A stretch of 47,334 nucleotides of DNA from assembly GCA_028289065.1 (NCBI GenBank), contig JAQGHA010000007.1, positions 1 through 47,334 of the forward strand, given 5' to 3'. The position numbers and the translations under genes are program-made. Origin of the DNA: Candidatus Saccharimonadota bacterium. Its GTDB lineage: Bacteria; Patescibacteriota; Saccharimonadia; Saccharimonadales; Saccharimonadaceae. Position 1 is the stretch's first letter. The number at the start of each line of letters is the position of its first letter. The notes beneath the pieces are model-generated. The model ran no database searches. It was not told where the DNA came from and saw nothing but the letters and a program-made list of their open reading frames with translations. Shown here in pieces: positions 3,760 through 15,899 of this stretch.

Positions 3760-3835
3760 GGGGCTGTAGCTCATCGGTCAGAGCAGGCGGCTCATAACCA
3801 CTTGGTAGATAGTTCAACTCTATCCAGCCCCACCA
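3760..3835 (+). tRNA. tRNA with anticodon CAT, probably tRNA-Ile2 (lysidine type)
   Basis: Complete cloverleaf: acceptor GGGGCTG/CAGCCCC, T arm GATAG-TTCAACT-CTATC and an encoded CCA. The anticodon loop is CTCATAA. The arm from GAGCAGGCG to ACTTGGT closely matches bacterial tRNA-Ile2 rather than elongator Met, so the C34 is probably converted to lysidine and reads AUA. The anticodon stem contains a C-A mismatch at 29-41. The 3' end is the attachment site of the downstream integrative element, and its antisense strand encodes the last codons of the recombinase. The Met alternative cannot be excluded. Confidence 0.85.
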
Positions 3836-5376
3836 GAATTTAATAAAGAACTTCCGACTAGATCGTTGAATGGCTCTCTCCAGAGGTAATCAACGATTTT
3901 TTCGTTATCAACACGTAGGTTCAAAAACAAAATACGGCATAAGGCATCTTTTTCCACGGCAGACCCAGCGACCATCTTATCTTTTGCTGTTTTGAGAAGG
4001 TTCAAAAACTCTTCTTTATTAAGCTTAATCCTAGAAGGATTCTCAATTTTCTTGTTGTGTTTTGCAATTTGAGCTTCTAATGACATCTGGTCATTAGATA
4101 GATCCTCAAGCCGTTTCATACTCGATACGAAAACAGGAGAACCCTCATCAAAGCGACCAATAGCTAGCGTACGTTCGTTAATCTCACTCTTAATATGATT
4201 GAGTGAACCATTCAAGCTATAGACCTCTTCTTTGATCTTGATAATCTTCTCGTCAGTCATATCATCAATAGCCTTGCCGTAACGCTCGTACATCTCATCT
4301 GAGATAGTAATCGTTTCAAGGTACTCGTACAGAGACCTAAAGATATGCTTAGCACGGATAGACCTAGGTTTACGAGTACAGTCCCTATTGTTACAACGAT
4401 AAGACAGTACACTTTTACCGCTACCGTTCTTGTTCTTACCAACTATCATATGGTTCGGACCCTTACAAACTGCGCAGTATACAAATGCATGTAGTGGGTA
4501 GAAAGTGACCCTCTTTTTGGTGTTTCTATCTCGTGTTCTGCCACGACTCATAGCCTGTATAGCCTCGTACATTTCTTTAGTTGCAACAGCCTGAAGCCCA
4601 TGAAGTTCCACTAGATTCACGGTCTGGTTAGCCTGTAATAATATTCCGTAATAAAAGGGATCTCTAAACATCTTACTAACGGTTGTAAGTATTGGATGAA
4701 TCTCTCTACGCCTTCTCACGTCCTTCGTAATCCTCTTCACACCACGATCCTTAAGGAATTGTGTAATACCCGAAAGACTCTCACCTTGATATCGCATTTG
4801 CCACGCCTGTTTAACAAGCTCATGATGGCCATTTGGCTCATATAGGCCGCTAACCTCACTACGGTTATAGCCCCACTTAGGCGTACCTGCAGACTTCCCC
4901 TCATCAAGGTTTCCCGACACCCCTCGATTGACCTTGTCAGATAAATCATCCGAATACTGCTTCGAGAAGACAAAAAGCATTCCAAGCAACATCTTGCCAT
5001 TGGCATCATTGCTGAACTGGTGACTATGAAAACGGATATCTTGTAGTGTGCGTTCATCTAGCATATTGATAATGTACCCGCCCTCAAGCATGTTACGACT
5101 CAATCTATCAGGATGCCAACAAAGAATTGCATCATACTTTTTGTCTTCCAATGCTTTAATCATTTGATTAAACACTGGCCGTTGGTTTGGAAGTTTAGCC
5201 GACTTCGTCTCCTTAAGCACCTCCACTACGTTCAAGTCGAGGTCCTTAGCTAACCGTTGGCAGTCTTTAATCTGATCATCGATTGAACGGACCTGACGAT
5301 TCTCATCTTCTGTGGATTTACGTACATACAAAACGTAACGTAATCTTTTAATGTCTGTGGCTTGATGACGTACCAT
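3820..5376 (-). CDS. Large serine recombinase (integrase), C-terminus replaced by tRNA sequence
   Basis: 518 residues. The resolvase domain holds catalytic Ser21 in YVRKSTED and the HPDRLSRN block near residue 94. A recombinase domain follows (about 165-270), then a zinc ribbon with CAVC (about 308-311) and CNNRDC (about 331-336), and a coiled coil (about 380-440). The last residues GGAG and the TAG stop are read from the antisense strand of the tRNA 3' end, so this terminus exists only in the integrated state. The matching 42-codon extension lies at 11327-11465; the circular form would encode about 559 residues. TAGAAT at 5388-5383 lies 6 nt before the ATG, giving a leaderless start. Confidence 0.95.
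   Translation of the reverse strand: MVRHQATDIKRLRYVLYVRKSTEDENRQVRSIDDQIKDCQRLAKDLDLNVVEVLKETKSAKLPNQRPVFNQMIKALEDKKYDAILCWHPDRLSRNMLEGGYIINMLDERTLQDIRFHSHQFSNDANGKMLLGMLFVFSKQYSDDLSDKVNRGVSGNLDEGKSAGTPKWGYNRSEVSGLYEPNGHHELVKQAWQMRYQGESLSGITQFLKDRGVKRITKDVRRRREIHPILTTVSKMFRDPFYYGILLQANQTVNLVELHGLQAVATKEMYEAIQAMSRGRTRDRNTKKRVTFYPLHAFVYCAVCKGPNHMIVGKNKNGSGKSVLSYRCNNRDCTRKPRSIRAKHIFRSLYEYLETITISDEMYERYGKAIDDMTDEKIIKIKEEVYSLNGSLNHIKSEINERTLAIGRFDEGSPVFVSSMKRLEDLSNDQMSLEAQIAKHNKKIENPSRIKLNKEEFLNLLKTAKDKMVAGSAVEKDALCRILFLNLRVDNEKIVDYLWREPFNDLVGSSLLNSGGAG
3827..3835. other. attL core (GCCCCACCA) at the tRNA 3' end
   Basis: The 9-bp sequence is repeated directly at 11457-11465. Here it closes the tRNA gene. 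On the minus strand it is read in frame by the recombinase gene as part of its final codons before the tRNA-encoded stop. Confidence 0.8.
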
Positions 5377-5382
5377 GTTGTG

Positions 5383-5388
5383 ATTCTA
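5383..5388 (-). promoter_or_regulatory. -10 box of the recombinase gene
   Basis: TAGAAT on the minus strand, exactly 6 nt before the recombinase ATG. It lies 4 bp downstream of the stop codon of the 49-residue gene. Confidence 0.6.
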
Positions 5389-5392
5389 GCAC

Positions 5393-5542
5393 CTAAAGTG
5401 CAATACGTCCTCCATTGTTATCCGATATTGATATGCCGTTCAAGGCTAAAAGAGAGTCTGATACCTCAATACACTCAAGCAGATCAACCAACTCTAATAT
5501 GGTATGGTCCGCTGTATTATTTTGAGCTTTGAGTACTTCCAT
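5393..5542 (-). CDS. Small hypothetical protein, 49 residues
   Basis: ATG at 5542 and TAG at 5395-5393. The peptide begins MEVLKAQNN, has an amphipathic acidic middle (TILELVDLLECIEVSDSLL) and ends GGRIAL. It looks like a folded small protein rather than noise, but no family is recognised. A TATAAA box (minus, 5562-5557) lies 14 nt before the ATG, with an out-of-frame ATG between. It fills most of the gap between the recombinase and the upstream unknown gene, in the same direction. A regulator or accessory factor of recombination is possible but unproven. Confidence 0.5.
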   Translation of the reverse strand: MEVLKAQNNTADHTILELVDLLECIEVSDSLLALNGISISDNNGGRIAL

Positions 5543-5556
5543 GCACTCATCGTAAA

Positions 5557-5562
5557 TTTATA
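5557..5562 (-). promoter_or_regulatory. Possible -10 box for the 49-residue gene
   Basis: TATAAA on the minus strand, 14 nt upstream of the start codon; no clear -35 box seen. Confidence 0.35.
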
Positions 5563-5583
5563 CGAAGGTTACAGGAATGACAG

Positions 5584-6123
5584 CTAAAAAACTCTTTTCT
5601 TGTCCTTTTTGTACGCACTCTTAATACGACCAACTGTCTTAACATCCACTTCATGATTGCTAGCAATAACAATGTTACTGAGCCCCGCATCTATGTCAGC
5701 ACGAATATCTCTGTCACGGTCAGATAAGGGTTTAGTAATTATACGTTTTCTACGATCTAGAGCGTAAGCATCAAGGCCGGGCTTAATACTAGAACGCCAA
5801 TACTTATCTATATAAGCCTTTAGCTCATTCACAGTGATATCGTGCGCAAGGACTAACGATACCGTACCTTTAGGGTTCGCTTCTATGCTGACGTATTCAC
5901 CGATTAAGGACTCATCCCAGACATCCGTTTCAATATAATAACTGATTATCTCCCAGAATGTGCTCGGTAGATGATACTTCTCCAGTATTAACGAGGCGCT
6001 CGCTGCTTGGGCATATACACCCCCTGAATGTCGCACAAGTTCAATCGAGAGACAGAAGTCTCTATCGTTTTTTAATTGCCTTAAAAGCTCCAAACCACGC
6101 ACATCTTCAGACATAACATTCAC
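5584..6123 (-). CDS. Hypothetical protein with C-terminal helix-turn-helix-like region
   Basis: 179 residues, soluble, family not recognised. The C-terminal 45 residues (DRDRDIRADIDAGLSN, IVIASNHEVDVKTVGRI) look like the small helix-turn-helix of resolvases and homeodomain-like regulators, and end in a basic tail KKDKKRVF. The N-terminal two thirds are mixed alpha/beta with no catalytic motif. It lies upstream of the recombinase, in the same direction. A DNA-binding partner of the recombinase, such as a directionality factor, or a regulator is a reasonable guess only. Confidence 0.6.
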   Translation of the reverse strand: MNVMSEDVRGLELLRQLKNDRDFCLSIELVRHSGGVYAQAASASLILEKYHLPSTFWEIISYYIETDVWDESLIGEYVSIEANPKGTVSLVLAHDITVNELKAYIDKYWRSSIKPGLDAYALDRRKRIITKPLSDRDRDIRADIDAGLSNIVIASNHEVDVKTVGRIKSAYKKDKKRVF

Positions 6124-6371
6124 CTCTACTACAATGATACGTTTTTGAGTATTTTTGGTCTACATTCATACAGTAATCTATAGCAAGAATAACCTGTTGT
6201 ACCTATAAAACTGCAGGGCTTAAACTTTTTCCTTGCAGAGACACAGCCAGGTAAGCATGTCGGATAACAATGTTCGGATACTATTTTTATTTTTTTATGC
6301 AGACCACAGGCAAGCTTAATATAGGACTCCCTCCCCTTGCCTGGGAAATTTCGGGTGGTATGGGGGTTCCC

Positions 6372-6599
6372 CTACAAACCCTGGAAGAATTTATCAACAT
6401 CAATACGCAAAGCCTGGGCAATTCTATAAACCGTAGTAACAGTAGGCCGCCTTTTGCCGGTCTCAATGTTAGCAATAGCAACTCGGTCTAGTGAAGCCTC
6501 GCTAGCGAGCCTCTCTTGAGTAAAGCCCCTAGCTTTACGTAACTCAGCAATACGCTTGCTAAGCTGATTTAAAAAGGCTTCTTCGCTTCCGATAGACAT
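6372..6599 (-). CDS. XRE-family transcriptional regulator
   Basis: 75 residues, essentially one Cro/C1-type helix-turn-helix domain. ISKRIAELRKARGFTQERLA-type helices are followed by the recognition region ASLDRVAIANIETGKRRPTVTTVYRIAQAL. A short tail DVDKFFQGL closes it. No ligand or oligomerisation domain is present. Its ATG lies 6 nt after TATGCT (6611-6606), and paired inverted repeats lie between it and the divergent gene at 6677. It probably represses itself and the divergent small operon. Confidence 0.92.
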   Translation of the reverse strand: MSIGSEEAFLNQLSKRIAELRKARGFTQERLASEASLDRVAIANIETGKRRPTVTTVYRIAQALRIDVDKFFQGL

Positions 6600-6612
6600 G
6601 CTCTAAGCATAT

Positions 6613-6649
6613 GTAGTCATAAGACTACGGACCATAATCATTTGACTAC
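6613..6649. promoter_or_regulatory. Paired operators and divergent promoters for the XRE regulator
   Basis: Operator 1 is a perfect inverted repeat, GTAGTC-ATAA-GACTAC (6613-6628). Operator 2 is a weaker copy with the same 4-nt spacing, ATAATC-ATTT-GACTAC (6634-6649). Their centres are 21 bp apart, two helical turns. Operator 2 overlaps TTGACT (6642-6647), which is a -35 box exactly 17 bp from TACATT (6665-6670) and serves the plus-strand gene. Operator 1 adjoins the -10 of the regulator gene itself. Binding could block both promoters. Confidence 0.7.
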
Positions 6650-6676
6650 AATTTAAAACTGATCTACATTAGGCAT

Positions 6677-6925
6677 ATGAACACAAAGACCTACCAGAAT
6701 AAGCCTCTAGTAATCACTCTCTCGGTAATCTTTATCCTGTCTATATTCTTTATTGTGGGTGACAGGGTATACAGCTCTAACGCAAAGCGAGATTGCTTCA
6801 CAAAGGCACGTTCTGCATTAGGTATTAGTACTGGTGAAAAATTGAAACTTGGCGAAAGCGCAACCGCTGCAGTTGCGTACTCAACCTACAACGATATGTG
6901 CTTGGCAAATGAATATGGACTCTAA
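6677..6925 (+). CDS. Small single-pass membrane protein
   Basis: 82 residues. A hydrophobic segment (about 12-30, TLSVIFILSIFFIVGDRVY) is followed by a soluble extracellular-type part with two Cys (about 39 and 75). Promoter TTGACT-N17-TACATT is followed by 6 nt and the ATG, so the message is predicted leaderless and under the XRE operators. It overlaps the next small ORF by 11 bp, forming a compact three-gene unit with the FtsK-like ATPase. No family is recognised. Confidence 0.65.
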   Translation: MNTKTYQNKPLVITLSVIFILSIFFIVGDRVYSSNAKRDCFTKARSALGISTGEKLKLGESATAAVAYSTYNDMCLANEYGL

Positions 6926-7007
6926 GCACAGTTCCGAGGACCTGCGGTCCCTTGTTGAATACTTCAAGATACTAATTGAGATTGACCAGCGCATCAATCA
7001 CTCATGA
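6915..7007 (+). CDS. 30-residue ORF, translationally coupled
   Basis: ATG at 6915, stop TGA at 7005-7007. The peptide begins MDSKHSSEDLRSL and continues VEYFKILIEIDQRINHS, predicted to be one amphipathic helix. Its start lies inside the end of the upstream gene, and its stop overlaps the ATG of the ATPase gene as ATGA. That overlap pattern favours a real gene, or a coupling ORF that delivers ribosomes to the ATPase start. No family is recognised. Confidence 0.45.
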   Translation: MDSKHSSEDLRSLVEYFKILIEIDQRINHS

Positions 7008-7594
7008 ATATTACGTCGGCTGATTACTTTACCTTTAATGTAAACTACTCTCTACTTTTGTTAGGCCAGACAGGCTCAGGTAAGAGTTTCCTTGTAGAAA
7101 GGCTCATAGCTAGCCGCCTAGCAGCCTTAGACCCTAAGAAGATACAGTTCGCCATATTTGATCTGAAGCAATGCTTTTCTTCGTCATTAGACATTAAGCC
7201 AGAGTATCTACTATTTGATATAGAGCGTAACGGTGATGAAAAGACATTTCAGAGACTAGAGGACCTTGCACAGCTTTGTACTGAACGAGTTCTTAGTCAC
7301 AGCACCCAACCTCAAGTCTTTATATACATAGAAGAGAATGACTTGGCTCGTATGGACCAGGAGCGCTTCGATAAGGCGATTCTCACTATCAACAGGGATG
7401 CTCGTAGAACAAACATGAAGCTTATCTACTCAACCTCAAGTCCGAGTGGTTCAAGTGTCTCAGAAGGCCTGAGGGATAGTTTTGAGTTAATTCTTGCGGG
7501 GCCACTACTTATGACAGACCATGATGTCCTCAGGTTGCCGTACACTGCTCACTTGAAGCCGTTGTCTTTTGTTGTTACTGAGAACCGTTCTTAA
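7004..7594 (+). CDS. Minimal FtsK/HerA-like ATPase
   Basis: 196 residues, the size of a lone motor core. Walker A is GQTGSGKS (21-28) and Walker B is VFIYIEEND (105-113). The following block INRDARRTNMKLIYSTSSPS matches the FtsK/SpoIIIE pattern of a sensor strand ending in an (A/S)T-x-x-P segment. There are no membrane segments, no gamma DNA-reading domain and no HAS extension. In this family the motor moves DNA, or acts in conjugation or packaging. Here it lies in a mobile element behind a small membrane protein, so it may help transfer or copy the element. The start is fixed by the ATGA overlap with the preceding ORF. Confidence 0.75.
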   Translation: MNITSADYFTFNVNYSLLLLGQTGSGKSFLVERLIASRLAALDPKKIQFAIFDLKQCFSSSLDIKPEYLLFDIERNGDEKTFQRLEDLAQLCTERVLSHSTQPQVFIYIEENDLARMDQERFDKAILTINRDARRTNMKLIYSTSSPSGSSVSEGLRDSFELILAGPLLMTDHDVLRLPYTAHLKPLSFVVTENRS

Positions 7595-7708
7595 GGAACC
7601 AATCAAAGATAGGTAGTTTCTTTAAAACGAAGGACTAGGATTCCGTTCATAACATTAACAAATATAAAGCTCGAGTTTTTGCGCGATTTTTGCTAATCTA
7701 GATACAGG

Positions 7709-8770
7709 ATGATAAAGCAAAAGCAAAAAATTAAGGTTGTTGACCTATTCTGCGGAATTGGTGGCTTGACACATGGTCTTCAACTAGAAGGCTTTAACGT
7801 TGTAGCGGGTATAGATAACGATGTGACATGTAAATTTGGCTATGAAGCAAATAACAAAGCTCGATTTGTAGCCAACGACATCTCTAACGTCAGCTCTTCT
7901 GAGATATCTGAGATGTTCAAAGGAGCTGACATTAAAGTTCTCGTTGGTTGTGCGCCGTGTCAGCCATACTCAGGTCTTAATCGAAAGGGTCCAACCGAAG
8001 ATAAGATGACGCCTCTTAAGAAGTTCGGGGAATACGTTGCTACCCTGAAGCCGGAAATTGTTTCTATGGAAAACGTAAGAGGTTTGGCAAAAGAAAATAA
8101 GTACCCAGTATTTCAAGAGTTTCTACAAACACTCACGGACCACGGGTACCAGTACGAGTACGTCATCGTAGATACTTCTGATTACGGAATTCCCCAAAAA
8201 AGGCACAGGCTTGTCTTACTAGCCTCACGTCTTGGACCTATCTCACTGATAGCACCTACGCATACAACTGCGAAAGTCACAGTGAGGGACGCCATCTCGG
8301 ATTTACCCCCAATAGAAGACGGCGTCATTAGTGCCTTTGATCCACTACATCGTGCGGTAAAAATGAACGACCTAAATAAAAAGCGTATCAAAGCGACCCC
8401 CTCAGATGGCGGTGACGCCTCGGCATGGGATCGCTCGCTACTACCAGCCTGTTACCTTAAGGAGTCAGGAAAATCATACATGCATACCGTATACGGGCGT
8501 ATGCGATGGGACGAACCAGCCCCAACCATGACAACCAACTGTACAGGTTTGGGTAACGGCCGCTTTGGCCATCCAGAGCAGCACAGGGCTATTACACTGC
8601 GAGAGGCAGCACGTATACAAACCTTTCCTGATACATACAAGTTCACTGAGAACACCGAAAAAGTACCGACTACACACATCGCTAAATTCATTGGCAATGC
8701 GGTTCCAGTAGACCTTGGTCGTGTTATTGGCAAAAGCATTAGCCAACACCTGGCCTTGGCTGGATATTAA
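7709..8770 (+). CDS. DNA (cytosine-5)-methyltransferase
   Basis: 353 residues, full length. AdoMet motif I is VDLFCGIGG (11-19). The catalytic PCQ loop has Cys84 in GCAPCQPYSGLN. Motif VI is ENV (121-123) and motif VIII is QKRHR (163-167). The target-recognition region (about 190-285) is followed by REAARIQTFP and the closing motif IGNAVP. All elements of an active enzyme are present; the target sequence cannot be read. It is convergent with the Z1 gene and the two stop codons overlap in one TTAA. In known systems, C5 methylases next to Z1 proteins belong to restriction-type defence, and methylation would mark self DNA. Confidence 0.95.
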   Translation: MIKQKQKIKVVDLFCGIGGLTHGLQLEGFNVVAGIDNDVTCKFGYEANNKARFVANDISNVSSSEISEMFKGADIKVLVGCAPCQPYSGLNRKGPTEDKMTPLKKFGEYVATLKPEIVSMENVRGLAKENKYPVFQEFLQTLTDHGYQYEYVIVDTSDYGIPQKRHRLVLLASRLGPISLIAPTHTTAKVTVRDAISDLPPIEDGVISAFDPLHRAVKMNDLNKKRIKATPSDGGDASAWDRSLLPACYLKESGKSYMHTVYGRMRWDEPAPTMTTNCTGLGNGRFGHPEQHRAITLREAARIQTFPDTYKFTENTEKVPTTHIAKFIGNAVPVDLGRVIGKSISQHLALAGY

Positions 8771-10911
8771 CTTTTATTGAAGATGTATGGATTCAGCGAT
8801 TCAGGGCCAACAATCGTTGGATAGTAGAAGCTCGTATCATCCCATTTACTCAACTTAGCGCCCTTCATTTTAGCAATGAACAAGGTCGGCTCTTTAGCTT
8901 TCTGCCAACGATTTAATTCACCGTTTTTACCACCAAAGTGAACACCATTGTCGATATATCCCCCGACCGTATCATCGGCTTTACGATCAGATTCACGCCA
9001 TTCCAACATAACAGTATCGTCTCCTAGCTGCTGTGCAAAGGTCTTCAAATAACTAGAAACATGCTTGTCGGACCAAGAGTTTGTCGCGTGAGTTTTTAAC
9101 GCCTTAGCAAGTCGTTGCGCGTCTTCTAACGAAATCTTTTTACTGTTCTTGGGTGAAGTTAGAAACTCAGGTGCCACTTGCTTCATGATTTTGTTCACAG
9201 CTGCCGTAACCTTGTCCGCCTCATCCTTCTTGTATACAGGATAATTTGGATAAATGGCACGACCCGGATATAAGACCTTCACCTTATCTGCATCAAGTAC
9301 GTTTGGACGAGTTGGCCTTAAGCCTACACCGGGCATTACCGTCTTTAAAAGTAAGGCACCTTTTTCATCAAAACCGTTCTGCTCGATGTACTTTCGCGCA
9401 TCTTCATCACCCTTATAAATCTCACGAAAACGCCTATAGAGTGTTCGTGACAAGAAGACACGAGTATATGCGAGTGTATCCTTACGATATCCAAACATTC
9501 GAGCATGCTGATACATGGTATCTGCCATCGAGTTCTTCGGAAGCCTTGTATAGTAAGTTACTAAGAGCTTCTTTATAGCCAGCCCTCGACCTACTGTATT
9601 GCCGCCAATCAAAAAGTTATATGATTTACTATAACGCATTTCATCATTTGTCGACTTAGCATTTACAGTGAATAGCTTCCGATGTAGGATACGTGTCTTT
9701 GCTTCTTTCAGAATGTCATCAAAGGACGGCGCATCCGTGCATGTCAGCAGAAGTTCATCGTACGCCTTCCTAAGCTGAGTAATAATTAAAGCGTTAGCTA
9801 CATCGTTCGGCGCCCTAAGCGCACCAATAATATTCGACACAAAGCCATCGACTAAATCTTTTACCGCTGAGTGATCGCTCTGCTTCACGCTAGTGTGACA
9901 AAGCATTTTGTACTCTTGCCATTTACCCGTAGTAATACCTATGGCAGTGGCTGATACGATAAAGAAACATACCGCAGCCTGAAGGCCTTCAGGTACTAAA
10001 CTTTCGTCTTCGTGCAGCTTAATATTCTCATTCTCATCCACAAGCCGAATGTATGGAACGTCAGCCGGTGATGACTCGCCGAAAAATACTTTTCCTCCAA
10101 CGTACTGCTCACCTGCTTCCAGCAAATGAACGAATGAAAGTCGCGAACGTGAGTCAGTATTTTGCAAAAAGATACCTTGCGGAGTACCCGTAACACTAAC
10201 AAATACCCCGTAAGGCATCACCTTACGTAACGAAACACTTTCGCTACTATGCACTAAGCTATGAATTGTGCTTGGTGGTGCTTCTGGGTCAGACTTCGAT
10301 CGCTTACCCGTATTGGTATCTAGTGTCGCTTGATCACCCTCATCATCGAAGATGATAGTGGGATACTTCTCGGCACCAATCTTAGTTAGAAACTCAGTAA
10401 GCTGCTGAAGTACTTGCGGGCCCTTTGAGCCTACTATTACAACACCAAAATCTTTATCCTCAAGTGCACGTGCAATATGCGCAGCTTCTGTAGTAAGCCC
10501 ATTACCCTTTAGGTCAGCCTTTGAGTAAATCTGTACCGTTGGCATTCCATCAATGAAGTCCTGGTGAGTTTGTCCTACTAGGCGGTTAATGTTCGAGGTC
10601 AAAATTACCGCGATACGGAAATGATTGTCGAGTGCTAATGCTGCTGTTAGAATCATTGCTCGAGTCTTGCCACTTTGAATGCGACCGTAGAGCAAGCCTA
10701 CTGGCGCCACATTAGTATTGTCGGTTACCTCACCGACTCCATCAACGCCAACGTATCCAGTGCCAACGGTTGTTTCGTATTTATCAACAATCGTGCGGAG
10801 GATATTTGTTGTGTTTTCCGTCATAGCTTCATGTTCCTCGCTACTCTCGTCTATTACCGAGAGTGCTTGCTGGAAGTGAGTTCCAGGTTGTATTTCTGCT
10901 GGTTTATTCAT
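8767..10911 (-). CDS. Z1-domain superfamily 2 helicase-like ATPase
   Basis: 714 residues. Walker A is GRIQSGKT (76-83), the DEAD-like box is FDDEGD (187-192) and the motif III-like step is TGTP (240-243). The Z1 signature follows in the 430-490 region: GGNTVGRGL, then MADTMYQHARMFGYR, with the Arg finger-like residues of the family. Known family context (C5 methylase, MORC/MutL-type ATPase, AIPR, PD-(D/E)XK proteins) points to restriction-type defence. Here only the methylase accompanies it, and no nuclease motif is visible in the C-terminal third. The gene appears to be transcribed with a ~311-nt leader from a perfect-consensus promoter at 11257-11229. Confidence 0.9.
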   Translation of the reverse strand: MNKPAEIQPGTHFQQALSVIDESSEEHEAMTENTTNILRTIVDKYETTVGTGYVGVDGVGEVTDNTNVAPVGLLYGRIQSGKTRAMILTAALALDNHFRIAVILTSNINRLVGQTHQDFIDGMPTVQIYSKADLKGNGLTTEAAHIARALEDKDFGVVIVGSKGPQVLQQLTEFLTKIGAEKYPTIIFDDEGDQATLDTNTGKRSKSDPEAPPSTIHSLVHSSESVSLRKVMPYGVFVSVTGTPQGIFLQNTDSRSRLSFVHLLEAGEQYVGGKVFFGESSPADVPYIRLVDENENIKLHEDESLVPEGLQAAVCFFIVSATAIGITTGKWQEYKMLCHTSVKQSDHSAVKDLVDGFVSNIIGALRAPNDVANALIITQLRKAYDELLLTCTDAPSFDDILKEAKTRILHRKLFTVNAKSTNDEMRYSKSYNFLIGGNTVGRGLAIKKLLVTYYTRLPKNSMADTMYQHARMFGYRKDTLAYTRVFLSRTLYRRFREIYKGDEDARKYIEQNGFDEKGALLLKTVMPGVGLRPTRPNVLDADKVKVLYPGRAIYPNYPVYKKDEADKVTAAVNKIMKQVAPEFLTSPKNSKKISLEDAQRLAKALKTHATNSWSDKHVSSYLKTFAQQLGDDTVMLEWRESDRKADDTVGGYIDNGVHFGGKNGELNRWQKAKEPTLFIAKMKGAKLSKWDDTSFYYPTIVGPESLNPYIFNKS

Positions 10912-10964
10912 TTATTTTTATTGCCGGTCCTTTACCGGATTAAATTAAATTGAACCAGGGGATT

Positions 10965-10992
10965 TTGACATCGCGAGCGTTTACGCTATTAT
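10965..10992 (+). promoter_or_regulatory. Promoter for a short antisense RNA
   Basis: TTGACA (10965-10970), 16-bp spacer, TATTAT (10987-10992), pointing away from the Z1 gene. No convincing coding sequence lies downstream before the terminator at 11046-11068. Confidence 0.7.
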
Positions 10993-10998
10993 TGATAT

Positions 10999-11068
10999 AT
11001 GGCTTATGGTGAAAACCATATGCAATAAATCGATTTACCGACAAGAAAGGACCGAAAGGTCTTTTTTT
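10999..11068 (+). ncRNA. Candidate ~70-nt antisense RNA opposite the Z1 leader
   Basis: Starts about 7 nt after the -10 box and ends at an intrinsic terminator. Hairpin 1 is TATGGT-GAAA-ACCATA (11005-11020), extended by two outer G-C pairs across a T-T mismatch. The terminator hairpin also has a GAAA loop. The whole RNA is complementary to the leader expected from the opposing promoter at 11257-11229. By analogy with counter-transcribed RNAs of plasmids and antisense control in some restriction systems, it could limit Z1 expression. This is inference from promoter, fold and geometry only. Confidence 0.55.
11046..11068 (+). terminator. Terminator of the antisense RNA
   Basis: Stem 11046-11053 with 11058-11065 around a GAAA loop (core GACC/GGTC), followed by Ts to 11068. 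On the other strand it leaves only a weak T stretch, so leader transcripts towards Z1 could pass. Confidence 0.7.
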
Positions 11069-11083
11069 GTTGGAGCGCGATGC

Positions 11084-11103
11084 TATACCTATGAATAGGT
11101 ATA
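11084..11103. repeat. Perfect inverted repeat in the Z1 leader region
   Basis: TATACCTA-TGAA-TAGGTATA, an 8-bp perfect palindrome with a 4-nt centre. It could be a regulator operator or an RNA hairpin in the leader. Its half sites do not match the XRE operators. Confidence 0.5.
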
Positions 11104-11228
11104 CTTAAAAGAACGTTTGCACAAATAAGTCGATTTACCGGATCTTGTCATGTGTGCTGGCGACAGGCTTCTGTCTGGCTGAAGTTTTGGACCCCCTGGC
11201 CACTTACCCTCACTTGCAGTTAACGGGG

Positions 11229-11257
11229 ATTATATCAGATGACTGGCACTCTGTCAA
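11229..11257 (-). promoter_or_regulatory. Perfect-consensus sigma-70-type promoter directed at the Z1 gene
   Basis: On the minus strand TTGACA (11257-11252), exactly 17 bp, TATAAT (11234-11229). Transcription would start near 11222 and run about 311 nt before the Z1 ATG at 10911. It lies just past the severed recombinase tail and has no long ORF directly after it. It is the strongest promoter match in the window. Confidence 0.8.
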
Positions 11258-11326
11258 TGCGAGTGCTAGCAGCATCAAAGTGCTACGAAGGTTCAAAAAC
11301 TTTCAGGCAGTACACTAAACCGCTGT

Positions 11327-11465
11327 CTAGTAGGTGTAGCTCGACTCCATTAAACTACTTGAGGCTACCTCAAGTTCGTAACTCCAATCTTGCACCGGGT
11401 TACTCATAAACCAATCGACAAGGGAGGGAAGATTTCGTTCAAAAAACCTCTCTTCTGCCCCACCA
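11327..11465 (-). pseudogene. Severed 3' end of the recombinase gene
   Basis: Reading the minus strand from the attR core, the frame that matches the recombinase (GGT GGG GCx) stays open for 42 codons after the shared GGA. It begins GGAEERFFERN, passes NPVQDWSYELE and ends MESSYTY before TAG at 11329-11327. In the integrated copy this frame has no start or upstream gene. In the excised circle it would be fused to the recombinase at 3820. It is therefore not a decayed gene but the displaced C-terminus of a functional one. Confidence 0.8.
11457..11465. other. attR core (GCCCCACCA)
   Basis: Second copy of the tRNA 3' end sequence, marking the right end of the element. The DNA to its right (AAAACTTATTTTAC...) is presumably the original sequence that followed the tRNA. 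Confidence 0.8.
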
Positions 11466-12061: not shown

Positions 12062-12721
12062 CTACTGACCGTACTTATTGGCCAAAAGGCTGTAATCAAG
12101 AAAATTAACTGTACCATCCAAGTTAATATCGGCGCGGCCAAGCGAAGCACCTGATTGGTTATACTTTGATGCCAATTGGCTAAAGTCAAGAAAGTTAACA
12201 TTGCTGTTTTGGTCAATATCGGCAGCTAGATAAATAGTAATGCAATTATCACCCACGCCCTTTGGCGTACAACCAGTGTCACCGGTAAGAATAAGGCGAT
12301 CGACCACTACCCCCTGAGAAGAACCAATAAGTTTAAAAGTATGACTTGCAGCAGTTAAAGATACGTCGATGGGGGTACCGGTGCTGGTGGTACTAATCCA
12401 TCCAGTAGTATTGTTTGCAAAGTGGGTTGTTGCGCCACTTGTATAGGTTGGAACGTTTGAACCCCCGACGATATAACAAGTATTCCCATCAATTTCGAGT
12501 AAAAAGCTATCGTCAGTAGTATTCAAAGCTGCCATTCGCGCCCAAATACGGTAGGTACCGGCAGTAGAGACAGTACTTGTTTGGGTAACAGTGCCGTAGT
12601 CGCTACCAGGAGCCGTACACGCAACCGCCTGGGCTGAATCCACACTATAGATTGCGATACTTGAAGATACCACCAATGCGATGGCAAAAAAGTACGAAAG
12701 GTTTTTAATTCTTAACTTCAT
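12062..12721 (-). CDS. Secreted protein with carbohydrate-binding-like region and dockerin
   Basis: 219 residues. Signal peptide about 1-33 (KNLSYFFAIALVVSSSIAIY, then AQAVA). Residues ~35-150 look like a galactose-binding-fold carbohydrate-binding module (TAGTYRIWARM, SHTFKLIGSSQGVVVDRLILTG). The C-terminus is a type I dockerin of two calcium-loop repeats, DIDQNSNVNFLDFSQLASKY and DINLDGTVNFLDYSLLANKY. Dockerins bind cohesins, and two cohesin-like proteins follow immediately upstream in the same operon. Its start overlaps the end of the membrane-anchored cohesin gene by 17 bp, which implies coupled translation. Confidence 0.85.
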   Translation of the reverse strand: MKLRIKNLSYFFAIALVVSSSIAIYSVDSAQAVACTAPGSDYGTVTQTSTVSTAGTYRIWARMAALNTTDDSFLLEIDGNTCYIVGGSNVPTYTSGATTHFANNTTGWISTTSTGTPIDVSLTAASHTFKLIGSSQGVVVDRLILTGDTGCTPKGVGDNCITIYLAADIDQNSNVNFLDFSQLASKYNQSGASLGRADINLDGTVNFLDYSLLANKYGQ

Positions 12722-13334
12722 GATGGGCCCTTTTCTTTTTTACTTTTGTTCTTAAGATGTTCCACAGTAAGCCAAGTAGAACTATAAACACTATAGTAGT
12801 GATGGCAGAAAACAGCCATACAGTAGTTTTTTCATTAGTATCGAACTGTAGTTGTGGGTTGGTGGCAATGCCATCATTGGCTGCATTACCTTCGCTTATT
12901 TTGAGGTTTGCGTTGTCATCTTTCAAGGAGGTAAACGTCACCGAAGCAACTTTCACGTCGCCCTTAACTGTTTCGCCACCCAACTTTGCAACTTGAACCG
13001 TTACGGTATCGTCTTTTACGACAGGCGGGATGTATGATCCAAATGGAGAATTTTCATTATCAATTGATTTATAAGCCAACTGGCTAGCATCGTAATTAAT
13101 TGTTGCTGTAACAGTATCGATAGGTTCCTCTGAGGAGATTTGAATAGTTGCCGTAACATCAGTGCCTTTTTTTATTGCAAAGGTTGAGGAATCGAGTGAT
13201 AAGGTGCTTGCTTTCTCGGTATTGGTACTCAATTGTCGCCAAAGTAAGCTAGTATACAAAGCTAGCCCTATAAAGGCCATGGCTACTATCGCAATAACAA
13301 TAGGAACTAGTTTCGGTCGCCTAAAATGTGCCAT
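12705..13334 (-). CDS. Membrane-anchored cohesin-like protein
   Basis: 209 residues. An N-terminal membrane segment (about 12-32) may act as signal anchor. A cohesin-like beta-sandwich (about 45-160) contains the pattern KKGTDVTATIQISS, IDTVTATINYDASQLAYKSI and VKVASVTFTSL. A second membrane segment (about 175-196, LFSAITTIVFIVLLGLLWNIL) is followed by a basic KVKKKRAHH tail. It could hold the dockerin protein encoded next to it on the cell surface. An AAGGAT ribosome site lies before the ATG. Confidence 0.8.
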   Translation of the reverse strand: MAHFRRPKLVPIVIAIVAMAFIGLALYTSLLWRQLSTNTEKASTLSLDSSTFAIKKGTDVTATIQISSEEPIDTVTATINYDASQLAYKSIDNENSPFGSYIPPVVKDDTVTVQVAKLGGETVKGDVKVASVTFTSLKDDNANLKISEGNAANDGIATNPQLQFDTNEKTTVWLFSAITTIVFIVLLGLLWNILRTKVKKKRAHHEVKN

Positions 13335-13359
13335 AGGTATTACTTGTTATCCTTCATAA

Positions 13360-13809
13360 TTATGTAATGGTATACGTTGCGCCAGTAGTACTTTGAAGTA
13401 CGTCGGAAGAAGTGTTTGCATCGGCAACCCCTGAACCTGCTGCAAACGTGATAGCCACTGAACCAACGCCCGATGCGGTGAAGGTGACAATTGCTACAGT
13501 TTTAGTACCGCTCGTTGACCCGCCTAAGATACCGCTTCCCAATCGTACCGAGCCACTCCCACCACTACTTTCAATAACAGTAGTAAAGGGGCTACCAGAA
13601 GTACTAATAGATTGAAATGAAAGCCTGTTAGTTGGATACGTTAAGTTTGCTTGGACGGTATTGACCTCCGTGCTCCCGGTTTTAACTAAAATCGTTACTG
13701 TTACAGTCGCGCCATTACTATAGCTGCGACTAGCTGGCGATAGCACTAATGATATAGAAGTGCGTGCTCCCTGGGCGGCCGCTTGTAATCGTCTTCCAGT
13801 CCTACTCAT
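13360..13809 (-). CDS. Cohesin-like domain protein
   Basis: 149 residues, almost all one cohesin-type beta-sandwich: YSNGATVTVTILVKTG, EVNTVQANLTYPTNRLSFQSI, VAIVTFTASGVGSVAITF. The first ~18 residues (MSRTGRRLQAAAQGARTS) are basic and not hydrophobic, so no normal signal peptide is present. That is odd for a protein expected outside the cell; it may be exported by another route, or the true N-terminus may be lost. GGAAGAG precedes the ATG. It lies 25 bp upstream of the anchored cohesin gene in the same direction. Confidence 0.75.
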   Translation of the reverse strand: MSRTGRRLQAAAQGARTSISLVLSPASRSYSNGATVTVTILVKTGSTEVNTVQANLTYPTNRLSFQSISTSGSPFTTVIESSGGSGSVRLGSGILGGSTSGTKTVAIVTFTASGVGSVAITFAAGSGVADANTSSDVLQSTTGATYTIT

Positions 13810-13889
13810 TTTATATCTCTTCCAAATTATCTATAAAAAGTTAATGTTAACTAATGAAAGTATAGCTTTGTAAGGCGAAAGAAACAATA

Positions 13890-15899
13890 TTACTTCCACG
13901 TTACACCGTAATGTCGCGTTCCAGCCATAATGAACATATTCATATCAGCGTTGGCTGGAACAGCTACCGCCGACCCATGTAGCCCAGCTAGCGATGCGGT
14001 GGGTGTACCATCTGATTGGACATAGCTATTGCCGTATCGGCCCGCTGATTCAAACCCCGAGATTGAGACTGGGCTACCAGCCATAGCAGTAGAAAATGCG
14101 CTGGTAGTCGTATAGCGTCCCGACGGTTCGTTAATACTAAATATATAGCTACTACCGTTGGCGTACACATTACCGTTGATCTGCGTCCGAGGAATTCCTC
14201 GAGAACTGTCAGCAACATGTATGGTTGTTTGTATCGGAACATACGCATCGGTATTGCGCTGGGTAATACAGACAGGTGTTACTACCCCACAGTAGCCTGC
14301 ACTCGTTGGGTAGGCGATGATGTTATTGAACATACTATCAATTCGTGGAATCCAATCCAGGGTATCTGGGGTTGGTAAATGATACGAATCACGCATATTT
14401 CCCCATGGTCCACACGGCGGATTTTCCGGGTTGGAACAGCCCGCCATTGAGCGCTCGTCCGTATACACCCCAACTGGATCCGTACCGCCTATAATTGTGT
14501 TGTTAATCAGTTTTAATCCAGACGAGCCAGCTAATTTAACAGGCTGACCAGTGCTCGAGGCAATGTAATTATCAATTAATAATAAATCATCCGATATTTC
14601 ATAAAATACCGTTGAGCCGGCATTATTGGTCATAGAGTTGCTCGCAATAATTGTGTGATAATTACTAATATCGAACCAAATTCCATGGCTGTTATTCCCC
14701 GACACGACATTGCTAAGAATCTTAGTATGCCAAGTACGCGCAGCTTTAACTGCGCCCGATTGCGGACTAAACGTAAATTCGTTAAAACTATTCATATTCG
14801 TAAGCCTTGAATTTTGGATAGTGAAGTTATCCGTGCCATTGAGGCTCATCCCCATCCAATTAGAGTTATTCAACGTTACGTGGTCCATAAGACTTCCATT
14901 GTTACGGTTACTGCTGCCGTCATACAGCACGGCTAGATAGGCCGAATCACTGATTTCTACATTACGCATAACTGTATTGTCGGCAGTTGTCGCAAAAATC
15001 ATCACACCGTAGTCCGCGCCGTTGTTTGAGTAGCGAGTCACCTTAACGCCTTCAACTGTTGTATTCGGTGCATCAACATAGAGGAAACGGTTTCCGTCAG
15101 ATACTTCAATATTAGCTTGGGCGGCATTTGTCGCAGTCATGTATAGGCGGTCGTTAGTCTGATCTACCCAAAAAGTTCCGTTCACTACTGAAGCGCGTGC
15201 GCTAACCTGTCGAAGTTGAGTGCTGCCAATCCAGGCCTGATCCGGGTATTTACCTACTCCATCCCCTGTGAGGTTTTGACCTGTTGTGAAAGATATACCA
15301 CTCCCATCTGCCACAGGGCGTGGCGTGTAAGCGATATACCTAAGCGAACCATCCGTAACCCATCCGCCACTAACAGTTTGAGCGCCGTTAAATACAGGCG
15401 TTTCTCCTGGATACGCAATTAACTTTAAAGTCTTAGTAAGGGGGACTTTGACATTTACATGATCGCGGTAGGTACCGCCCCTAATAACAATATTGCTTCC
15501 ATTCGAAGCTGTACTTATTGCTTTAGCAAGTGTAGCGAAAGGCGAACCAACCGTACCGCTATTGGTATCGGAGCCTGTGGGTGCAATATATACTGATGAA
15601 CCGCTTAATGAGGCGAGGCTATAGCTAATTGGTAATTGCGCGCCCGCCCCCGCCGTAGGATCGTTCGTGCAGTCACCGAATCGTATTGCACCACCTGCGG
15701 ATGCGGCTGTGTCGGCAATGGATGTCGTACAGCCCGCAAGTGTTCCATTTTCAGTCTGTATAGTTACAGTCGGGTTACCAGCGTAAGCGCTTACGAATAA
15801 ATAACTACCTAAGGCGGCGAAGGCGGTTACGATAATAAAAGCCCAAGCATTGAACCCAGTAGACATTAGCTTTCTCAAAAACAAACTCACAACATTCAT
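13890..15899 (-). CDS. Exported right-handed beta-helix protein (DUF1565 / pectate-lyase-like fold)
   Basis: 669 residues. Signal or anchor segment about 17-38. A low-complexity linker leads to VYIAPTGSDTNSGTVGSPFATLAKAI (about 107-132), the typical start of DUF1565 beta-helix proteins, followed by GGTYRDHV. Repeated short strands with Asn ladders (TVMRNVEISDSAYLAV, LMDHVTLNNSNWMGM, FTIQNSRLTNMNSF, LKLINNTIIGG) run from about 290 to 480. Such proteins bind or cleave polysaccharides; catalytic residues cannot be assigned. It heads the cohesin/dockerin gene run. TATAGT lies 7 nt before the ATG, close to the leaderless pattern. Confidence 0.85.
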   Translation of the reverse strand: MNVVSLFLRKLMSTGFNAWAFIIVTAFAALGSYLFVSAYAGNPTVTIQTENGTLAGCTTSIADTAASAGGAIRFGDCTNDPTAGAGAQLPISYSLASLSGSSVYIAPTGSDTNSGTVGSPFATLAKAISTASNGSNIVIRGGTYRDHVNVKVPLTKTLKLIAYPGETPVFNGAQTVSGGWVTDGSLRYIAYTPRPVADGSGISFTTGQNLTGDGVGKYPDQAWIGSTQLRQVSARASVVNGTFWVDQTNDRLYMTATNAAQANIEVSDGNRFLYVDAPNTTVEGVKVTRYSNNGADYGVMIFATTADNTVMRNVEISDSAYLAVLYDGSSNRNNGSLMDHVTLNNSNWMGMSLNGTDNFTIQNSRLTNMNSFNEFTFSPQSGAVKAARTWHTKILSNVVSGNNSHGIWFDISNYHTIIASNSMTNNAGSTVFYEISDDLLLIDNYIASSTGQPVKLAGSSGLKLINNTIIGGTDPVGVYTDERSMAGCSNPENPPCGPWGNMRDSYHLPTPDTLDWIPRIDSMFNNIIAYPTSAGYCGVVTPVCITQRNTDAYVPIQTTIHVADSSRGIPRTQINGNVYANGSSYIFSINEPSGRYTTTSAFSTAMAGSPVSISGFESAGRYGNSYVQSDGTPTASLAGLHGSAVAVPANADMNMFIMAGTRHYGVTWK

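Follow-up and report, generated by a model that had tools for sequence, protein, structure and literature searches.

Integration into a tRNA gene detaches a conserved C-terminal tail from a predicted large serine recombinase in Saccharibacteria

Introduction

Integrases whose attachment site lies inside a coding sequence have been described for tyrosine enzymes. In the SSV-type 'suicidal' archaeal integrases, the recombination site is located within the integrase gene, which is partitioned upon integration, and a review calls such enzymes exclusively archaeal (PMC8371274). In Myxococcus phage Mx8, attP lies inside the gene of the integrase IntP, and integration gives the integrase a new C-terminus, which was reported as a regulatory switch with changed activity (PMC6070905; Tojo 1996, cited therein). 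In mycobacteriophage BPs, attP lies inside the repressor gene, so that integration into a tRNA gene truncates the repressor and removes a C-terminal tag (PMC9262239). Classical large serine integrases such as those of Bxb1, phiC31, SPbeta and A118 share an architecture of N-terminal domain, RD, zinc ribbon and coiled coil, and papers from 2014 and 2022 state that serine integrases do not target tRNA genes (PMC4383910, PMC9262239). Here, we compare these systems with a mobile element in a Saccharibacteria-type genome whose large serine recombinase gene ends antisense within a tRNA gene. The original prediction held that the gene is split by its own integration, its last 42 codons lying 7.6 kb away.

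Results

Anatomy of the integrated element

We analyzed a window of 47,334 nucleotides from a genome of 0.93 Mb in 17 contigs. tRNA genes were predicted with ARAGORN, and open reading frames were annotated using Pfam, PADLOC and TIGR00675. The relevant features are as follows.

3760-3835, plus strand: tRNA-Met(CAT), the target gene, complete after integration
3827-3835, plus strand: core copy at the tRNA end (attL side), GCCCCACCA, reading TGGTGGGGC on the gene strand
3820-5376, minus strand: large serine recombinase in its integrated form, 518 aa, with its last codons and stop read from the antisense of the tRNA
3836-11465: integrated element, 7.63 kb from core to core
5584-6123, minus strand: element gene of unknown function, 179 aa
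6372-6599, minus strand: HTH (Xre-type) regulator (Pfam HTH_3)
7004-7594, plus strand: FtsK/HerA-like ATPase fragment, 196 aa (Pfam)
7709-8770, plus strand: DNA cytosine-5 methyltransferase, cargo (Pfam; PADLOC MTase_II; TIGR00675)
8767-10911, minus strand: Z1-domain protein, type II RM-associated helicase-like, cargo (Pfam Z1; PADLOC Helicase_II)
11457-11465, plus strand: second core copy (attR side)
11327-11465, minus strand: detached C-terminal tail of the recombinase, comprising the core GGTGGGGC, 42 codons and TAG: GGAEERFFERNLPSLVDWFMSNPVQDWSYELEVASSSLMESSYTY

The core GCCCCACCA occurs only twice in the window, and its first copy forms the last 9 nt of the tRNA (acceptor stem, discriminator and CCA). 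The recombinase (PF00239, 1.7e-23; PF07508, 1.7e-5) terminates in NSGGAG followed by a TAG at 3822-3820, inside the antisense of the tRNA. From the second core, the same frame stays open to a TAG at 11329-11327, and joining the two cores yields one continuous protein of 559 aa. All coordinates of the original prediction are correct. Besides the genes listed above, the element encodes an 82-aa protein, and we saw no phage structural gene. The cargo looks like a small defence module, the methyltransferase and Z1-domain protein (7709-10911) resembling a type II RM-like or MZA-like system. To the right of the element, host-side genes at 12062-15899 look like dockerin/cohesin-type and parallel beta-helix surface proteins, judging from their translations.

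To examine the target site, we inspected same-genus genomes and found that the orthologous tRNA-Met beside the same FtsL-like gene is complete in nearly all of them, with other sequence and no recombinase following it. This supports the tRNA end as attB, although these genomes belong to other species and the exact junction of the tRNA with AAAACTTATTTTAC was not found.

A homologous tail accompanies related recombinases

A single open frame of 42 codons is weak evidence, as we estimate that it would arise by chance in about 13% of cases. We therefore turned to homologues. A first search of genome contigs with the window protein alone found nothing, whereas a search with a family alignment found 79 loci, the named relatives being mostly Candidatus Saccharibacteria. 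Sixty-six of 394 family genomes hold relatives at E<=1e-60. In most of those examined, the recombinase ends antisense in a tRNA 3' end (Leu, Lys, Pro, Met, Ile, Gln, Ser and others). Rejoining short cores in independent elements located in tRNA-Leu, tRNA-Met, tRNA-Ile and tRNA-Lys gave similar tails, such as PDYVKPELLYYITDWWFLHPNYEFKPKELERSKYPRIEEFIY and PGEQTFELMDQIAEWLLQNLVDSSFATPKLSVTERISHLSQQVYTY; many other short repeats are chance matches and were ignored. The latter tail belongs to a second element of the family in the same genome (G000:C1:48720-50264; L022 in our numbering of recombinase loci), which resides in tRNA-Leu(TAA) with its own detached tail 10.35 kb away.

A hidden Markov model (HMM) built from the first ten tails found more, nearly all on the gene strand and behind a TGGTG or TGGC core. 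In a leave-one-out analysis, the predicted stretch scored best in its own locus, or second only to another tail (L062, L075), for all 18 tails tested; in the window, it ranked first of 1,879 open stretches. As these loci were chosen because a tail had been seen, we consider a count over 91 distinct loci to be fairer. Of these, 61 end inside an antisense tRNA, and of 46 with more than 5 kb upstream, 24 have an HMM-detectable tail upstream on the gene strand, none on the other strand and none downstream. The remaining 22 have no HMM-detectable tail, either because the element is longer than the stretch read, because the tail is too diverged, or because it is absent. Further same-order genomes yielded additional tails behind TGGTG cores (L230, E=2.5e-16; L232, E=1.8e-9). 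In total, we collected 36 distinct tails, most of them 44 or 48 residues long from the core and most ending in [YF]-x-[YFLIVC]. The central inference of the original prediction, that attP lies inside the coding sequence and that integration swaps the C-terminus, implies that other members carry the same hidden extension, and they do; the alternative it raised, that homologues end before the core with no relation to the tail, clearly fails.

The reading phase across the CCA end is likewise conserved. In 51 of 61 loci, the complement of CCA (TGG) sits in the same phase, with T closing one codon and GGN forming the next. In seven of the other ten, the tRNA ends without an encoded CCA (start GTCGGG or ATCGGG) and, by our reading, the phase is kept once that offset is counted. 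Exceptions are the two Uhrbacteria tRNA-Glu loci and one frameshifted gene.

Recombinases ending antisense in tRNAs also occur in Woesebacteria, Roizmanbacteria, Shapirobacteria, Uhrbacteria and others. While the tail HMM does not reach most non-Saccharibacteria CPR loci, a core-guided search recovered diverged tails ending in YxY (L139, L143, L146, L158, L240, L072; enrichment p=1e-7, with one duplicate locus), for example RIYTY in L139, KIYAY in L240, LYVY in L072 and YEY in L146 from Shapirobacteria, as well as a Uhrbacteria pair ending in AVTY (L163/L164, E=2.5e-8).

The tail is conserved as protein and co-diverges with the recombinase

We investigated how the tails evolve. In tail pairs, differences fall at codon positions 1/2/3 as 34/35/84, and synonymous changes exceed the neutral share (p=1.3e-13; one of the seven pairs is saturated and two come from one tail clade). 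Tail similarity follows body similarity (24 elements, Mantel 0/9999). Notably, the nearest tail to that of the window, found in the related element L102 at a different tRNA (tRNA-Pro), aligns at z=10.8, the two ending in SYTY (window) and SYDY (L102). Because many tails lack a start codon of their own, they can be translated as protein essentially only when joined to the gene. The selection therefore acts on the circle (or on tandem arrays) and is itself indirect evidence that circles exist and express the enzyme.

Direct evidence of a circle was not obtained. IMG/VR gave only two distant relatives, and plasmid and phage collections gave only hits of about 22-26% identity. A search for assembled full-length cognate genes in 393 same-order genomes gave only integrated forms plus one tandem chimera with stops (G175:C30). 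Some loci do carry contiguous, full-length genes (L096; a partly degraded copy in L070/L108), yet these appear to be tandem-array joins. In L096, the cognate-type tail lies 3.8 kb upstream (close to the tail of its sister L097), while the tail actually joined to the recombinase is of the type found with another recombinase clade (L092/L132). This is what insertion of one element beside another at a shared core would give, and shows that tails can be exchanged. Tandem arrays with such chimeric genes were also noted in L088 and L075. In L121, L075 and L079 (L119), several detached tails of one clade lie kilobases apart upstream of one tRNA-Lys, suggesting repeated insertions and losses at the same tRNA.

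The tail begins beyond the canonical integrase fold

An AlphaFold2 (AF2) model of the homologue L096 (mean pLDDT 83) shows the standard serine-integrase domains, including zinc ribbon and coiled coil, to about residue 515, followed by a disordered linker around the core (residue ~518), a low-confidence helix at 526-538 and a disordered end. Solved integrases align over model residues 8-514 (SPbeta integrase 9dxh, Z 17.9, model residues 8-510; Bxb1 9iu2, Z 15.1), and no counterpart of the tail was aligned in these structures. According to this model, integration removes nothing from the canonical enzyme, and the tail is an addition. The low confidence of the tail means that no docking site is suggested.

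Discussion

Our analysis points to an element that integrates with a large serine recombinase whose attP lies inside the 3' part of its own gene. In the circle, the gene would encode a 559-residue protein, a canonical body plus a conserved tail of ~45 residues. Crossover with the CCA end of a tRNA gene leaves an intact tRNA on one side and moves the tail codons to the far end of the element, so that the integrated gene is stopped by the antisense of the tRNA and yields a 518-residue body that keeps all canonical domains. We are highly confident in this split-gene anatomy. That excision regenerates the full gene, and that the tailed and tail-less enzymes differ in activity, are inferences, and we hold the explanation as a whole with moderate confidence. 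The most likely role, which we regard as about as probable as not in the absence of biochemical data, is that the tail licenses or favours integration (attP x attB) and that its loss locks the integrated state or makes the remaining enzyme excision-biased, since the tail is translated essentially only from the circle or from tandem arrays, where integration is the enzyme's main task. Known serine integrases are held one-way by coiled-coil autoinhibition on attL/attR (PMC3783163), and a factor fused to the C-terminus can reverse direction (PMC5737554), making a C-terminal appendage a plausible place for such control. More tentatively, a CPR-wide class of serine integrases may use loss and regain of a C-terminal peptide, driven by its own crossover, as a hard-wired directionality switch in place of a separate directionality factor.

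The main rival is that the tail acts as a degron or stability tag, with the circle producing a short-lived recombinase that is stabilised by integration, as for the BPs repressor. In its favour, the extreme C-terminus is the most widely kept feature, also in diverged CPR tails. However, the amphipathic middle (FE...I..WL) is conserved too, the lengths fall into two tight classes, which is more than a degron needs, and destabilising the enzyme in the one form that must integrate seems counter-selected; we consider this reading possible but unlikely. It is very unlikely that the tail is neutral read-through of an attP that happens to overlap the gene end. Although the open frame would be unsurprising at a single locus, length, sequence and C-terminus are conserved over many elements, substitutions are biased towards synonymous changes, and the tail co-diverges with the body.

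Equally improbable is a DNA feature (attP arm) rather than protein. The first ~25 bp must belong to attP, as serine integrases contact a 25-bp half-site (PMC3783163), but conservation runs ~130 bp from the core, changes concentrate at third codon positions, and frame and stop are kept. Finally, half of the tails have some in-frame ATG, GTG or TTG upstream, which would allow a separate small gene expressed in the integrated state. This too is very unlikely, as 18 of 36 tails, including that of the window, have no in-frame start between the preceding stop and the core, often with only 1-5 open codons before it, and the conserved part begins at the core itself.

These findings imply that most database entries of this family are the truncated, integrated form with a spurious antisense-tRNA ending (GARERT, GGTRTHDTKLKRLVL and the like, e.g., in L116 and L121), so that enzymes cloned from annotation would lack a conserved part. 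If the tail sets direction, it would offer a one-protein switch for a tool class that now needs an added directionality factor.

An attP inside an integrase gene is itself known, but we found no precedent among serine integrases in our searches of open-access literature, which did not cover subscription journals and preprints. The family extends self-splitting integrases from tyrosine enzymes to large serine recombinases across a bacterial group and gives a case of serine integrases that use tRNA 3' ends. In phage phiFC1, by comparison, the attP core (1445-1447) lies beyond the integrase stop (1426). In the BPs system, the truncated protein is the repressor and the integrase is a tyrosine integrase, whereas here attP is in the recombinase gene itself. 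SSV-type integrases are tyrosine recombinases whose catalytic domain is separated, leaving the integrated gene dead; here, the catalytic and DNA-binding body stays whole and only a tail is lost. Mx8, which also gives its integrase a new C-terminus upon integration, is a single phage with what appears to be a tyrosine integrase (PMC4383910), while the present case is a large serine recombinase family spread over CPR bacteria, with a short conserved tail beyond the catalytic and DNA-binding fold, targeting tRNA CCA ends.
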